Assembly: GCA_937125225.1 (NCBI GenBank)
Contig: CAKZLE010000023.1
Coordinates: 62,001-126,000, forward strand
Length of the DNA stretch: 64,000 nt
Reading direction: 5' to 3'
DNA from: an uncultured Spirochaetia bacterium
GTDB lineage: Bacteria > Spirochaetota > Spirochaetia > CAKZLE01
Numbering within the stretch: position 1 is the first letter of the stretch; every line of letters starts with the position of its first letter. The position numbers were made by a program, and so were the translations under genes. A model generated the notes under the pieces. It saw nothing but the letters and a program-made list of their open reading frames with translations. It made no database searches and was not told the origin of the DNA. Below, piece after piece: positions 1,294-40,471 of the stretch.

Positions 1294-1310
1294 TTGGCAT
1301 GTATTTTGCT
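1294..1310 (+). promoter_or_regulatory. Sigma-54 (RpoN) promoter of glutamine synthetase
   Basis: TTGGCAT-GTATT-TTGCT: GG at 1296-1297 and GC at 1308-1309 with exactly 10 bases between, the sigma-54 -24/-12 geometry. Transcription should begin near 1321, giving a leader of about 35 bases before the AAAGGAG and start codon of the glutamine synthetase gene. Confidence 0.8.
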
Positions 1311-33563: not shown

Positions 33564-35953
33564 AAACACATGAACAACATACACATATAGACTGTATAGA
33601 GCTCCCTCTTATTTCTTCGAGGGAGCTTATTGTCTTACCCCACTCTATCGTTCCCTATGTAGCATCCACGAGTAGTTCGATCGATGCACTCACTAGAGCG
33701 ATGAAGAATGATAGATTGCTCTTCTTCGCCTATCCGAAAGAGGATATCGATGATGAGTTTCACCCTATCGGTACGGTTGTGAAAGTCCTTCAGATCTTTA
33801 AACTCAAGGATGGAACAACCAGAATGATCGGAGAGGCGCTCTACCGAGCAGAACTCTGCTCCTGCAATGAGTCCTCAACAAGGATACTCTTCGCAAGGAT
33901 CGATCCTGTCATCGACTCAAAACAGGTAGATGCGCAGATCGAACTGCTGATGCAGGCCTTATTGACCTCCTTCGACACCTATATCGCCCTACTCAAAAAG
34001 TTCCCTGAAGAGATCAAAGCGAAGATCTCAGGTGCTGAGTATGGGGATAAACTTGTTGATCTTCTTGCATCTCATGTCCCATTCAAAAAAGAACTTAAAC
34101 GAGATCTTGTTCAGAATCTTGATACAATAGACAGATTACAGCAGACTCTTGTCCTTATGGAGACTGAGATCGAGATGATCAAACTCCAAGGAACGATTCA
34201 ACAGAGAGTGAAAGAGCGTCTTGAAAAGTCTCAGAAAGAGTATTTCCTCCATGAACAGATAAGACAGATCAATAAAGAGTTAGGAAGAGAGCAAGACGAA
34301 GCTGATGAGGCAGATGAACTGCTTGCTAGGATCTCTGCATTGGATCCTCCTGAGGAGGTGATCCTCAAAGCGAAAAAAGAGGCTAACCGCCTGAGAAAGC
34401 TGCAGTCAATGGCACCTGAATCAGGGGTCATCAGAACTTATTTGGAATGGCTTGCCGATATACCCTGGTCATACTCGACCGAGGACAACTATGATATACC
34501 GCGGGCCAAGAAAGTGCTAAACGAGGATCATTACAATATGATCAAGCCAAAAGAGAGGATCCTCGACTATCTTGCAGTACGAAGCATCAAACAGAGTCTG
34601 AAAGGTCCAATACTCTGTCTTGTGGGTCCTCCAGGAACCGGAAAGACCTCTTTGGGAAAATCCATTGCAAAGACCATGGGACGTGAGCTTGTGCGAATAT
34701 CTTTGGGCGGAGTTCGTGATGAGGCTGAGATCAGAGGTCACAGGAAGACCTATGTTGGAGCACTACCGGGAAAGATCATCCAATCGATGAAGAAGGCCGG
34801 AACGAGTAATCCAGTATTCCTCCTCGATGAGATCGATAAGATGAGTTCAGACTTCAGAGGAGATCCCTCCTCTGCGATGCTCGAGGTTCTAGACCCTGAG
34901 CAGAACTATAGTTTCAACGACCACTATCTTGAAGTTCCCTATGATCTATCTCAGGTCCTGTTCATTGCAACCGCAAATTCTCTGCATACCATCCCCTCTC
35001 CCTTGAGAGATAGGATGGAGATCATTGAGATCCCTGGTTATTCAGATATTGAGAAGTTCCATATCGCTACACGCTTCCTCATTCCTAAACAGCTAGAGGA
35101 GAATGGACTCTCAAAAGCTCCAATCAGATTCAGAAGAGATGCGGTAATGAGTCTCATTCATGACTATACGATGGAATCAGGGGTAAGATCACTTGAGAGG
35201 GTCATCGGATCAGTCATTCGAAAGCTTGCACGGATCTATCTTGCAAAAGAGAAAGAGAACATCCCGCTTGAGGAGTTCACTAAGATGATCACGGCAAAGA
35301 GCCTACCTCTGTTATTGGGTAAACCGATTTATTCTGATGAACTCGTTCACAAGACTCCAGCTCCAGGGATCGCCCATGGGTTGGCATGGACAGAGATGGG
35401 AGGACGGATGCTCTCTGTAGAGACAGCCCTATTCCCAGGTTCCGGAAAGCTCATCCTTACCGGTAATCTCGGAGATGTTATGAAAGAGAGTGCAAGAATA
35501 AGTCTCTCCTATATACAGTCTCATGCGGACCTTCTCTCGATTGACCCGGAAATGATCAAGAACCATGATATTCACATCCATGTACCACAGGGTGCGATTC
35601 CTAAAGATGGACCATCAGCTGGTATCACACTTACTATAGCGCTGTATTCTGCACTGATAAAGACCCCACCAAAAGGTAATTACTCCATGACTGGAGAATT
35701 GACCCTGACCGGTAACATTTTAGCTATTGGGGGAGTAAAAGAGAAGATCCTTGCCTCCTACAGGAATGGGATCAAGAACATCCTTCTCCCTGCAAGGAAT
35801 GAGAAGGATGTTTCAGAGGATATTCCTAAGAAGGTCCTCGACGAGATCGACATAACCTATATCACCAACGTACAACAGGCCCTACAGCAACTCTTCCCAG
35901 AGTTCTGTGACGCCCAACGATGTGTTGTCTCAACAGAGGAGAAGAGAACATGA
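33560..35953 (+). CDS. lon: ATP-dependent Lon protease
   Basis: A 797-residue LonA protease with an N-terminal substrate domain ([19 protein letters not shown]...), a coiled-coil region, Walker [17 protein letters not shown], Walker [22 protein letters not shown], and a C-terminal protease domain with [11 protein letters not shown] (catalytic Ser) and [15 protein letters not shown] (catalytic Lys). It degrades misfolded and regulatory proteins in the cytoplasm. It is translationally coupled to clpX. Confidence 0.98.
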
Positions 35954-36936
35954 GAGAAATCAAGCAGGTCCCCCAGAACATCATAGATGCCATAGAGGCA
36001 CATGATCATTTCATCATCATAGGACATATGAATCCGGATAGTGATTCCATCAACTCTCAGTTAGCTCTGGCATCATTACTGCAGTATCTTGGGAAGGAGA
36101 CACTCCTCGCATCCGCAGGCCCCTTCACGAGACAGGAGATAGCCTCTCTTGAATCACAGTTTCATGCCCATATTCCGAGAAAGTATAAGTCACTTGACCC
36201 GCTAGTCCTCGTAGTTGATTGCTCTTCCCCTGATCGTATCGGGTATCTATCAGAAGAGATCGCGGGGCTTACCGTCGGAGTGATCGACCATCATGCCGCG
36301 GGACAGGGTTTCGGTGATATAACCTATATAGACCCTACAGCCTTCTCCGTCACCTATCTGATTCTTCAGATGTATCACGCCTATGCTGCCCCTATCTCTC
36401 AGACAGATGCACACAGAATGCTCTTCGGTCTTGCTACAGATACCGGTTATTTCAGACATGTGGGAGAGTATCGAGGAGAGGTGTTCCTTACAATCTCAGA
36501 ACTCGTAGAAGCCGGTGCTTCACCTCGAGTGATCTATCAGGAGATGTATGGGAAGAGGACATTCGAATCACGAAAACTCATCGGCCTGCTACTAGGCAGG
36601 ATGGAACAATACTTCGATGGGCGTATGCTCGTGACTTGGGAGACTTGTGAAGAGACTCTTCATTATGGGGAAGTCAATAGAGATTCAGAGACTCTTTACG
36701 CACAGATGCTTGGGGTCAATGAATGTGAGGTAATCCTCTTCGTTCGACAGAATGATGATGAGAATACCTGTACAGTCGGTTTCAGAGCTCACGGGGAGAG
36801 TCCGATAAATGTTGGAGCTATCGCTGCCGACTTTGGTGGAGGTGGCCATAAGAAGGCTGCAGGTGCGACAATGGAGGGTGATATCCATGATGTCATCGAT
36901 ACATTGATTGGGCGATTCACCCCCTTTCTTTCATAA
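35950..36936 (+). CDS. DHH/DHHA1 phosphoesterase (NrnA-like nanoRNase)
   Basis: A 328-residue protein with the DHH motif set: GHMNPDSDSINSQLALASLL, VLVVDCSSPDRIG, VGVIDHHAAGQGFGD and GLATDTGYFRH. It ends with the DHHA1 motif GGGGHKKAAGAT. Members degrade very short RNAs, pAp or c-di-nucleotide products. The start at 35950 (MREIKQ) has GAGGAG upstream and overlaps the end of lon by four bases, so it is the last gene of the protease cluster. Confidence 0.92.
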   Translation: MREIKQVPQNIIDAIEAHDHFIIIGHMNPDSDSINSQLALASLLQYLGKETLLASAGPFTRQEIASLESQFHAHIPRKYKSLDPLVLVVDCSSPDRIGYLSEEIAGLTVGVIDHHAAGQGFGDITYIDPTAFSVTYLILQMYHAYAAPISQTDAHRMLFGLATDTGYFRHVGEYRGEVFLTISELVEAGASPRVIYQEMYGKRTFESRKLIGLLLGRMEQYFDGRMLVTWETCEETLHYGEVNRDSETLYAQMLGVNECEVILFVRQNDDENTCTVGFRAHGESPINVGAIAADFGGGGHKKAAGATMEGDIHDVIDTLIGRFTPFLS

Positions 36937-37049
36937 CGAGAGTCATAAATAATTACTTGTTTTTACACCATATGATACCACAACACAACTAACACTATAT
37001 ATATAGGTATAGCTGTATATACATTACCATATATAGTATAATCTCTCTA

Positions 37050-37066
37050 TTGGCACGTATATTGCT
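37050..37066 (+). promoter_or_regulatory. Near-perfect sigma-54 (RpoN) promoter
   Basis: TTGGCAC-GTATA-TTGCT: GG at 37052-37053 and GC at 37064-37065 with exactly 10 bases between. Transcription should begin near 37077, so the coding start must be the ATG at 37100 and not the TTG at 37073. CTGTATATACATT (37013-37025) upstream resembles CTGTATATATATT near the glutamine synthetase promoter. Confidence 0.85.
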
Positions 37067-37099
37067 TTATCCTTGAGACACATCAAGAAAGGAGCATAT

Positions 37100-38005
37100 A
37101 TGAATACGTACTCTGTAACCTCACACATCAATTTAACAAAGTTAGTTCTCTCTTACCAGCAAGGTCAGACAACAAAAGATGAACTCCTTCATCATATGTA
37201 TAGCATCGCCTACTCCTATCCTTTGAAGAAACGTCTACTTCAGGAGGAGGAAGCCGCAGATTTTCTCATTTTCTTCCTACCGACTATCGAGGGGATGATC
37301 AAGAACTTCTCCTATGAGGGGAAGCCCTTCGAGCATTACCTCCATTGTTCTATTCGAAACAAGATACGATCCTACAAGAGCACTCAATACAAGAAGACAG
37401 CAAAGGAGATCATGTCTATCTATGCAATCAGAGAGGAGCATGTCGTAGAGGATTTTCAGGACTATGTATGTGAATCACACTCCCCAGCCTATCAGATCAG
37501 GCAGAATGAGGATAAGAAGCATCAGATCCTCATTAAGGAGAACCACAGCAGACAGAGCATGTCAGTAGATCATGCTCGATTGCTATATCTGCTCCTCATC
37601 TGCTACCGAAACATTCCTACCGGGCAGATGGAAGCTATAGGAGAGCTCTACCTCTCCTATGATATTGATTTCCATGCCCTAGTTCATCGCCTTGATGAGA
37701 CCTGCAGTAAGCAACTCGCATCGATCGAGAGGTTGCAGAATAGGAAGAGCAGACTATTTTCCGAGATCATCCTCCTCGAGACACAGATCATGCATGAACC
37801 AGACCCAGAATTCAAAGTGGCACTAGAGAACAAACTCTCAATTCGTCAAAGCCAGCTTCAACAGCTCTTGAAGCGTTTGAACGGAAGATCTCCACGTCCA
37901 AGCCACCGCCAGATCGCTGAACTGCTCAAGGTCCCAAAAGGAAGTGTAGATTCAGGAGTGTACTACCTGAAGAAGAATCTGAAATTGTTGCTGGACGATG
38001 AATAA
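37100..38005 (+). CDS. Sigma-70-like regulatory protein (region 2 and region 4 resemblance)
   Basis: This 301-residue protein was not matched to a named family, but it resembles a divergent sigma factor. Residues ~50-105 (EEEAADFLIFFLPTIEGMIK, then YEGKPFEHYLHCSIRNKIRSYK) resemble sigma-70 region 2. The last ~30 (PSHRQIAELLKVPKGSVDSG, then VYYLKKNLK) form a region-4-like helix-turn-helix. Between them lies a long helical part with a predicted coiled coil (about 210-262). AAGGAG is five bases before the ATG. It lies directly downstream of a sigma-54 promoter and overlaps the upstream in-frame option of rdgB. It could instead be a DNA-binding regulator without sigma activity. Confidence 0.7.
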   Translation: MNTYSVTSHINLTKLVLSYQQGQTTKDELLHHMYSIAYSYPLKKRLLQEEEAADFLIFFLPTIEGMIKNFSYEGKPFEHYLHCSIRNKIRSYKSTQYKKTAKEIMSIYAIREEHVVEDFQDYVCESHSPAYQIRQNEDKKHQILIKENHSRQSMSVDHARLLYLLLICYRNIPTGQMEAIGELYLSYDIDFHALVHRLDETCSKQLASIERLQNRKSRLFSEIILLETQIMHEPDPEFKVALENKLSIRQSQLQQLLKRLNGRSPRPSHRQIAELLKVPKGSVDSGVYYLKKNLKLLLDDE

Positions 38006-38027: not shown

Positions 38028-38630
38028 ATGAAAATTCTAGTAGCTACGGGAAACGCACATAAGAAGATCGAACTATCTCAGATATTCAACTCTCATGAAA
38101 TCCTCACTCCAGAGGATATCGGAATCGTTGGCTTTGATTTCGAGGAGACAGAATCGACCTTTCTGGGGAATTCGTTGGGAAAGGCACAAGCTCTATGGGA
38201 ACTTATCCAGGACAGGACAGATGCAAGTGATTACGCCGTCCTCGCTGATGACTCAGGTCTTGCAGTCGCTGCATTGGATGGAGCACCTGGGATCTATTCA
38301 GCACGATATGGCTCAGATGTCTTCGGACGGATGCTCGAATCCCCTGAGAGAAACTCATACCTTCTCAAGAATATGGAGGGGCTTACCGATAGACGGGCCT
38401 TCTTCGTCTGCTGTATGTCCTTGATCCTCGATGAGTATCGAGTCTATACCATCCAAGAACAGTTTGATGGTCAGATCATAGAAGAGGAGATTGGAACCGG
38501 TGGCTTCGGCTATGACCCGATCTTCTATCTACCTGAATACAGGAAGACGGTTGCACAACTTCCCGCTGATCTCAAGAACAGGATCAGCCACAGAGGGAAA
38601 GCAGGTCTTAAACTCGCTACATTACTGTAA
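38028..38630 (+). CDS. rdgB: dITP/XTP pyrophosphatase (RdgB/HAM1 family)
   Basis: A 200-residue nucleotide-pool sanitising enzyme that hydrolyses dITP and XTP to monophosphates. Motifs are MKILVATGNAHKKIEL, VLADDSGLAVAALDGAPGIYSARYG and GTGGFGYDPIFY, with SHRGKA near the end. The start at 38028 is chosen by family alignment, although the frame is open from 37998, where an ATG overlaps the preceding gene. It may be carried by the sigma-54 transcript. Confidence 0.95.
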   Translation: MKILVATGNAHKKIELSQIFNSHEILTPEDIGIVGFDFEETESTFLGNSLGKAQALWELIQDRTDASDYAVLADDSGLAVAALDGAPGIYSARYGSDVFGRMLESPERNSYLLKNMEGLTDRRAFFVCCMSLILDEYRVYTIQEQFDGQIIEEEIGTGGFGYDPIFYLPEYRKTVAQLPADLKNRISHRGKAGLKLATLL

Positions 38631-38656: not shown

Positions 38657-40471
38657 ATGAGTAACACCTATTCAATACCGACACGAGAAGAGACTGCATC
38701 TCAGGATCAGTGGGATCTTTCAAAACTCTGCACAGATGATGCAGCCTGGGAGAAGGCTTTCAATGAGTTCACCTCCCTGATCCCTCAAGCAGAATCATAT
38801 TCTGGCTCACTGAATGTTTCAGCACAGAATCTTCATGATTGTCTCGATTTCCTCAAGGTTGCGGGTATTCTTTCTGAGAGGATCGGCTATTATGCCTTTC
38901 TCCGATATGCAGAGGATGCAGGGAATAGTGATAACCAGAGTCGCTATGGCCGAGTCATGCAGGCAGAATCACAGTTTGCAGCAGCGACGAGTTTCATAGA
39001 ACCAGAGATCCAGGCGATCGATGATCTTCAGATGGAAGATTTCCTCTCTGACCCCATACTTGATGAGTATAAAATCATGTTGAAGAAGATCCTCCGTTAT
39101 AAACCCTATATCCTCAGTACTGAGGAGGAACGGCTCATTGCAATGGAGAGTGAATCTGCAGCTACAGCTCAGAAGGCCTTCTCTTCATTGACAGATGTCG
39201 ACCTTGAATTCGGAACGATCGAGATCGACGGTGAGAGCAGACCGGTGAGTCAGTCAAGTTACAGCTCATTTATGATCAACAGTGACAGGAATGTCCGAGA
39301 GGCAGCCTTCAAGACCTTCTATAAGGGCTTCGATGCCCATAAGAACACCCTTGCCTCCCTCTATTGTGGATCTGTCCAACATGATGCCTTCATCGCTCGG
39401 GTCCGTAATCATCAGTCTTCGAGATCTTCATCACTATTCCGTGATAATGTAAAACCTGAGGTCTATGACAACCTCATCTCAACGATTCATGACCATCTAC
39501 CTGCTCTCCACAAGTATTACAATCTGAGAAAGAGACTGCTCGGTGTCGAGGAGCTAAGGCATTATGATGTCTATGTTCCCCTGATCGATTCGATCAAATC
39601 ACACCATACCTTTGATGAGGCAATAGAGGTGGTCATCGAATCCTTGGCGCCATTAGGCTCTGAGTATACACAGACACTCCAATCAGGGCTCAAGGGTGGT
39701 TGGGTTGATAAATATGAGAACAAGGGCAAGCGATCAGGAGCCTTTTCAGCAGGCTCTTTCATAGGAGACCCCTATATCCTCATGAACTTCAAAGAGGATG
39801 TACTCCGAGATGTCTTTACCCTCGCTCACGAGGCTGGGCATTCCATGCACAGCTACTACAGTGTGAAGAGTAATCCCTTCCAACACTATAACTATACGAT
39901 CTTCGAAGCAGAGGTAGCCTCTACCTTCAATGAACAGCTATTGGCACACCACCTGCTCAAGAATACCGATGATCCAACGATGAGAGCCTATATCATAGGC
40001 AAACAGATCGATGATATCATCGCTACGATCTATAGACAGACTATGTTCGCAGAATTCGAACATCTTACCCATGAGGCCTATGAGAGCGGCACCCCCCTTA
40101 CGCTTGACTACTTCAGGACAACCTATAGGGCTCTGCTCGAACAGTACTTCGGACCTGATATGGTATTCGAAGAGGAAAGTGATCTTGAAGGATTGAGGAT
40201 TCCCCATTTCTATCGAGCATTCTATGTCTACAAGTATGCAACCGGTCTATCAGCAGCTATCGCCCTCTCGCAGAAGGTCTTAAACGGTAATGAGGATGAT
40301 CTCGGTGATTATCTCTCCTTCCTCTGTTCAGGAGGATCTGAATATCCTCTTGACTCTCTCAAGAAGGCAGGAGTCGATATGAGCACTCCTAAACCGGTAG
40401 AAGACGCTCTAGCCTACTTCTCAGCATTGTTAGAGGAGTTTGAAACTCTCCTCACCCAACAGGAAACCTAG
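38657..40471 (+). CDS. pepF: Oligoendopeptidase F (M3 metallopeptidase)
   Basis: At 604 residues it has the M3B layout: a helical N-terminal lobe beginning TREETASQDQWDLSKL and the zinc motif FTLAHEAGHSMHSYYS (HExxH), with downstream EAEVASTFNEQLLAHHLL supplying the third ligand. It cuts peptides of about 7-17 residues in the cytoplasm. AAAGGAG lies upstream. Its end overlaps the convergent glycosylase gene by 20 bases. Confidence 0.96.
   Translation: MSNTYSIPTREETASQDQWDLSKLCTDDAAWEKAFNEFTSLIPQAESYSGSLNVSAQNLHDCLDFLKVAGILSERIGYYAFLRYAEDAGNSDNQSRYGRVMQAESQFAAATSFIEPEIQAIDDLQMEDFLSDPILDEYKIMLKKILRYKPYILSTEEERLIAMESESAATAQKAFSSLTDVDLEFGTIEIDGESRPVSQSSYSSFMINSDRNVREAAFKTFYKGFDAHKNTLASLYCGSVQHDAFIARVRNHQSSRSSSLFRDNVKPEVYDNLISTIHDHLPALHKYYNLRKRLLGVEELRHYDVYVPLIDSIKSHHTFDEAIEVVIESLAPLGSEYTQTLQSGLKGGWVDKYENKGKRSGAFSAGSFIGDPYILMNFKEDVLRDVFTLAHEAGHSMHSYYSVKSNPFQHYNYTIFEAEVASTFNEQLLAHHLLKNTDDPTMRAYIIGKQIDDIIATIYRQTMFAEFEHLTHEAYESGTPLTLDYFRTTYRALLEQYFGPDMVFEEESDLEGLRIPHFYRAFYVYKYATGLSAAIALSQKVLNGNEDDLGDYLSFLCSGGSEYPLDSLKKAGVDMSTPKPVEDALAYFSALLEEFETLLTQQET

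Follow-up and report, generated by a model that had tools for sequence, protein, structure and literature searches.

A divergent gene of the sigma-70 family lies behind what is almost certainly a genuine sigma-54 promoter in this uncultured member of the Spirochaetia, and the arrangement recurs across the class. As judged from sequence, the locus is probably the middle step of an old cascade leading from RpoN to a sigma factor. The window, i.e., the whole 64,000-nucleotide stretch of DNA that was analysed, corresponds to G000:C23:62001-126000 in a genome of 3.43 Mb. The features of the locus are as follows:

35920-36936, + strand: nrnA-like DHH/DHHA1 phosphoesterase, outside the sigma-54 transcript (Pfam DHH and DHHA1; synteny)
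37050-37066, + strand: sigma-54 (-24/-12) promoter, TTGGCACGTATATTGCT (exact consensus; site kept upstream of orthologues)
37089-37094, + strand: ribosome-binding site AAGGAG, 5 nt ahead of the ATG at 37100 (sequence)
37100-38005, + strand: divergent ECF-like sigma-70-family gene, 301 aa (ORF; TIGR02937, E 1.1e-6)
38028-38630, + strand: rdgB/HAM1, non-canonical NTP pyrophosphatase (Pfam Ham1, 6e-51; conserved order)
38657-40471, + strand: pepF-like oligoendopeptidase (ORF and conserved neighbour; name by sequence recognition)

Sigma-54 promoters carry GG and GC 10 bp apart, in the consensus YTGGCACG-N4-TTGCW, and transcription starts about 12 nt past the -12 GC. The site at 37050-37066, for which a near-perfect -24/-12 geometry had been claimed in the sequence-only reading, proved to be an exact consensus match and to be conserved in orthologues. 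It reads TTGGCACG-TATA-TTGCT, with the -24 GG at 37052-37053 and the -12 GC at 37064-37065; the position of the latter places the predicted +1 at about 37077, and 33 nt lie between the site and the ATG. No other exact match to TTGGCACG-N4-TTGCW occurs in the window. Genome-wide there are four, all of them intergenic and each upstream of an ORF, while the weaker sites with one mismatch are nearly all intragenic. No clear enhancer site was detected upstream of the promoter in the window genome, where a scan for inverted repeats gave AT-rich palindromes only. A TATAAT-like stretch at about 37037-37042 was considered as part of a sigma-70 promoter, and the scan returned none with a -35 element.

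Since a lone site would be merely suggestive, the promoter assignment was decided by conservation at the orthologous position. Most of the first 30 loci carried a TGGCAY-N5-TTGCW-like site 28-106 nt ahead of the start, and 26 of 76 further loci scored at least 0.9 (versus 0.04% of shuffles), all 26 being within the class. The scoring matrix was our own weighting of the textbook sigma-54 consensus. Among the 83 class loci, which include a few close relatives, 48, 54 and 64 had a site when the minimum score was set to 0.90, 0.85 and 0.80, respectively, as against 0.05%, 0.26% and 2.2% of background windows. At 0.85, the comparison is thus between 54 of 83 class loci and 15 of 5733 background windows, and 23 of the 28 class families have at least one such site. 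In 62 aligned sites, the two positions of the GG were retained in 60 and 62, and those of the -12 TGC in 62, 61 and 61. As a control, the regions upstream of other ECF genes in the same genomes were scored, and none of 20 contained a site of at least 0.85. A recognisable site is absent in about a quarter of the class members; the site-less families are f11, f14, f27, f31 and part of f35, and f33 has a weaker site only (0.82). None of the sampled homologues outside the class (loci L138-L159 and L165) carries a sigma-54 site.

A direct repeat, TGTAAA-N4-TGTAAA (allowing up to two mismatches), was found upstream in 20 of 63 promoter-bearing loci versus 1.3% of shuffles. The excess shows a period of 10. 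In most cases 25-28 or 35-36 nt separate the repeat from the sigma-54 site downstream of it, a spacing which suggests that both occupy the same face of the helix. The repeat is absent upstream of the window gene; its carriers are L005-L009, L013-L017, L019-L024, L030, L032, L102 and L103. Separately, genome G151 was observed to carry an identical variant site, TTAGCACACTTTTTGCT, at both its sigma-like gene and a further sigma gene (L125 and L259).

The start of rdgB is located 22 nt past the end of the sigma-like gene, and an alternative rdgB start at 37998 would overlap it; given this short gap or overlap, the two genes are probably co-transcribed. Many class members share the order nrnA, promoter, sigma-like gene, rdgB and pepF, which was not seen around homologues outside the class. 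This shared order indicates that the class members are orthologues, with which the sigma-54 site has been retained.

The encoded protein is very likely homologous to the sigma-70 family, although its own similarity is weak. The NCBIfam model TIGR02937 (sigma70-ECF) aligns with residues 28-296 at a score of 28.3 bits, below the curated cut-off of 42.9 bits, and no Pfam sigma model matched the window protein even at an E-value of 10. A Pfam match to EAD9 (E 0.005) falls within the coiled coil, below the cut-off of that model, and was rejected. When family members were scanned singly, 24 of 29 matched TIGR02937. Similarity was far stronger in other-class homologues, which are about 270-315 aa long: seven were tested, with E-values of 1e-11 to 1e-33 and scores of 41.8 to 116 bits, and six of them passed the cut-off. 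In profile-profile comparisons, the class family matched the other-class homologues with a probability of 99.8 (E 8e-29, 260 columns), and these in turn matched spirochaete ECF factors with a probability of 97.6 (E 3e-12). Compared directly with ECF factors, the class family aligned in two stretches, with probabilities of 93.6 and 88.7; the control, a reversed alignment, yielded nothing. A profile search for sigma-70 similarity had been named beforehand as a possible refutation, and its outcome, weak for the window protein and strong for the homologues, speaks for the proposed relationship.

Scanning genome contigs with the single protein recovered one relative only, so that whole-genome searches were needed. 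Homologues were then found in 45 of 60 sampled relatives, and a profile search of the phylum detected members in 219 of 295 genomes, spanning 96 of 122 genera. Most members retain the region 2.3-like motif GxxFxxYL, and the region 4.2-like helix-turn-helix (HTH) is among the best-conserved parts of the family. The Q/E pair of ECF region 2.2 was not evident when the alignment of the class family was read, and the mode of core binding could therefore differ.

The domain organization of the protein, as obtained from profiles and AF2 models, comprises three parts:

37124-37435, + strand (residues 9-112): sigma region 2-like domain (AF2 pLDDT 96.6, pTM 0.84; Foldseek; TIGR02937)
37670-37882, + strand (residues 191-261): long helical hairpin or coiled coil (AF2, pLDDT mostly > 95)
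37889-37999, + strand (residues 264-300): C-terminal HTH, sigma region 4.2-like, PSHRQIAELLKVPKGSVDSGVYYLKKNLK (hhalign; PDB profile matches)

All three elements that had been read from the translation, namely a region-2-like segment, a region-4-like HTH and a long coiled coil between them, were thus recovered. For the N-terminal domain, the model predicts the fold of sigma region 2, the part of sigma factors that binds core polymerase and reads the -10 element. TIGR02937 gives a match to this domain alone in 29 of 66 members, and the ten best PDB matches of its model in Foldseek were sigma-factor entries, mostly region 2 structures. Their TM-scores were about 0.5-0.7 and all E-values exceeded 0.1, so the fold match is supportive rather than proof. 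The domain was modelled separately because coiled coils dominated the Foldseek results for the whole-chain model, which gave no significant match. Profile matches of the same domain to designed repeat proteins were sums of low-scoring repeats and were discarded. The helices of the coiled coil are predicted at residues 191-232 and 236-261; including it, the linker that joins the region 2-like part to the region 4.2-like part is about 150 residues long, and hence not a short one. For the C-terminal HTH, hhalign gave a probability of 88.7 against ECF region 4.2, and the best PDB profile matches were the ECF factors SigH and SigR.

The gene for RpoN itself is present in the window genome, as in 290 of the 295 genomes of the phylum, together with seven strong enhancer-binding ATPases. 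One of these (L069, G000:C22:53485) is 54-56% identical over its full length to the sole strong activator of Borrelia-like genomes, which is presumably Rrp2; here and below, Borrelia-like and Treponema-like are labels assigned by inference. The ATPase gene is located about 6 kb from an RpoS-like gene, and about 8 kb separates the matching pair in Borrelia-like genomes. Strong intergenic sigma-54 sites precede a type III glutamine synthetase gene (window 1294-1310), a cytosine/purine permease, a solute-binding protein, the RpoS-like gene and the sigma-like gene of the window, and a further sigma-54 site precedes amtB-glnK just left of the window (G000:C23:61422-61439). An enhancer-binding activator (C23:60318) is encoded just upstream of the glutamine synthetase and amtB-glnK sites. 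Strong intergenic sites also stand before two pspA genes, rlmE/ftsJ and hsp20 (G000:C14:28719, C14:31083, C14:54181 and C24:2055). The pspA genes adjoin that of a PspF-like activator, and genes for heat and envelope stress thus stand behind sigma-54 sites in a spirochaete.

The RpoS-like gene (C22:46722) has a perfect sigma-54 site of its own at C22:47121-47136. A site of at least 0.85 was present in 13 of 13 of the best RpoS-like matches checked, across families of the class, including those of small Borrelia-like genomes (L254-L256) and of a 1.1-Mb Treponema-like genome (L253), and was lacking at two other sigma paralogues (L257 and L258). The RpoS-like set is composed of:

G000:C22:46722-47136 (L213, L064); L180, L189, L192, L193, L241-L244 and L253-L256

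From these sequences, the Rrp2-RpoN-RpoS wiring looks class-wide rather than confined to Borrelia, which would make the sigma-like gene of the window a second output of RpoN. The sequence-only reading had proposed that the downstream factor was a divergent protein in place of RpoS. The first part holds, in that the window gene is distinct from the RpoS-like gene; the second does not, because the same genome possesses both and the sigma-like factor is therefore no stand-in for RpoS. Nor is the lineage as separate from that of Borrelia as had been supposed: kinship labels place both in the same class, the identification of Borrelia here being inferential. RpoN thus appears to have two parallel outputs, each a sigma factor.

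Relays from sigma-54 to a sigma-70-family factor are known from a few systems. In Borrelia burgdorferi, RpoN feeds rpoS, and BosR is needed at TAAATTAAAT direct repeats near the sigma-54 promoter of rpoS (PMC3037356). The window locus resembles this pathway in that a sigma-70-family gene is putatively under RpoN in a bacterium of the same class, whose genome also encodes an Rrp2 orthologue and an RpoS-like factor behind its own sigma-54 site; it differs in that the factor is a divergent ECF-like protein and not RpoS. The TGTAAA-N4-TGTAAA repeat of some relatives of the window gene is likewise different from the BosR repeat TAAATTAAAT. No member of the sigma-like family from the small Borrelia-like genomes (f19) was among the matches of the relative and phylum searches. 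In Pseudomonas syringae and its relatives, HrpRS and RpoN transcribe the ECF gene hrpL (PMC5263251; PMC8103513), which similarly couples sigma-54 and an activator to an ECF sigma gene. The lineage and locus are unrelated, however, and HrpL serves one secretion system, whereas the window gene lies in a housekeeping neighbourhood and its product carries a coiled-coil insertion.

Like ECF factors described by TIGR02937, the protein combines a region 2-like domain with a region 4.2-like HTH, and its other-class homologues pass the cut-off of that model. In contrast to ECF factors of 170-200 aa, it is about 300 aa in length, contains a long coiled coil and is putatively sigma-54-driven, and no adjacent anti-sigma gene was recognised at the window locus. 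A possible counterpart is LIC_10225 of Leptospira interrogans, an unclassified ECF sigma factor of 301 aa that falls outside the ECF groups and has a reported sigma70-ECF region at residues 21-194 (PMC12655853). The two may correspond, as likened by description only, and they share the same length; the sampled homologues outside the class lack the sigma-54 site. In the literature covered, with most subscription journals outside its scope, no description was found of the sigma-like gene or of an RpoN-to-ECF step in spirochaetes, and Borrelia RpoN-RpoS was the sole spirochaete sigma-54-to-sigma-70 relay described in the papers found.

In the proposed mechanism, an enhancer-binding ATPase, for which the Rrp2 orthologue at C22:53485 is the best candidate, would activate sigma-54 RNA polymerase at 37050-37066. 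Starting at about 37077, the transcript would span the sigma-like gene and rdgB, and perhaps pepF as well. The sigma-like protein would then use its region 2-like domain to bind core RNA polymerase, and promoters would be read by the region 2 and C-terminal HTH parts, with the coiled coil providing either a long linker or a surface for regulation. RNA polymerase would thereby be redirected by this protein beside the RpoS-like factor. The sigma-54-to-sigma-70-like cascade put forward in the sequence-only reading gains support from class-wide selection on the promoter and from the sigma-70 similarity; neither a regulon nor a target promoter was found, so that the second step is drawn from homology.

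That the protein is a working sigma factor appears reasonably likely on these sequence grounds. The missing ECF region 2.2 signature and the scores below sigma cut-offs make a sigma-derived regulator a serious rival, i.e., a former sigma factor that now binds RNA polymerase or DNA under sigma-54, as a sigma mimic, an appropriator or a plain HTH protein, and does not itself initiate transcription. Such a history would fit class sequences that lie far below the cut-offs while other-class homologues are still near ECF factors, the loss of the acidic/glutamine pair of region 2.2, and a helical hairpin of about 70 residues that is absent from standard ECFs. We nevertheless consider it unlikely, as most members retain the region 2 fold and the GxxFxxYL motif, and the region 4.2-like HTH is highly conserved; selection acts on each of the two ends expected to contact DNA or polymerase.

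Even less probable is a promoter serving mainly rdgB and pepF, for nucleotide-pool cleaning and peptide turnover in stress, with the sigma-like protein as a local operon regulator. The sigma-54 transcript should indeed run into rdgB, across either the overlap or the 22 nt, and the stress genes pspA, hsp20 and rlmE are among the other sigma-54 targets of the genome; but rdgB and pepF were not detected beside the gene in several loci with good sites (e.g., L008, L014, L032 and L103), which makes this account improbable. A chance resemblance, with the gene expressed from an ordinary promoter or by transcription running on from nrnA, might be argued from the looser pattern (up to one mismatch), which is barely above chance genome-wide (59 matches versus 44 for the reversed pattern), and from the scan of the upstream region, in which no terminator-like site was found past nrnA. 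Coincidence is very hard to reconcile with a site that recurs at the corresponding position in 23 of the 28 class families against the background frequency given above, and with ordinary ECF genes that lack one.

Returning to the cascade, we lean towards a view of RpoN as an ancestral hub of the Spirochaetia that switches on both an RpoS-like factor and a coiled-coil ECF-like factor, the latter having been lost in the smallest host-bound genomes. If so, the Borrelia pathway would be the reduced remainder of a network that once had two arms. The wiring from RpoN to an unnamed sigma-like protein is kept in at least 23 families of the class, and the origin of the Borrelia pathway thereby becomes testable by comparison. 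The locus supplies a gene, a promoter and a neighbourhood for tests in free-living spirochaetes. Should the protein prove to work as proposed, it would represent a new form of sigma factor, in which a coiled coil is set between the two DNA-reading parts.
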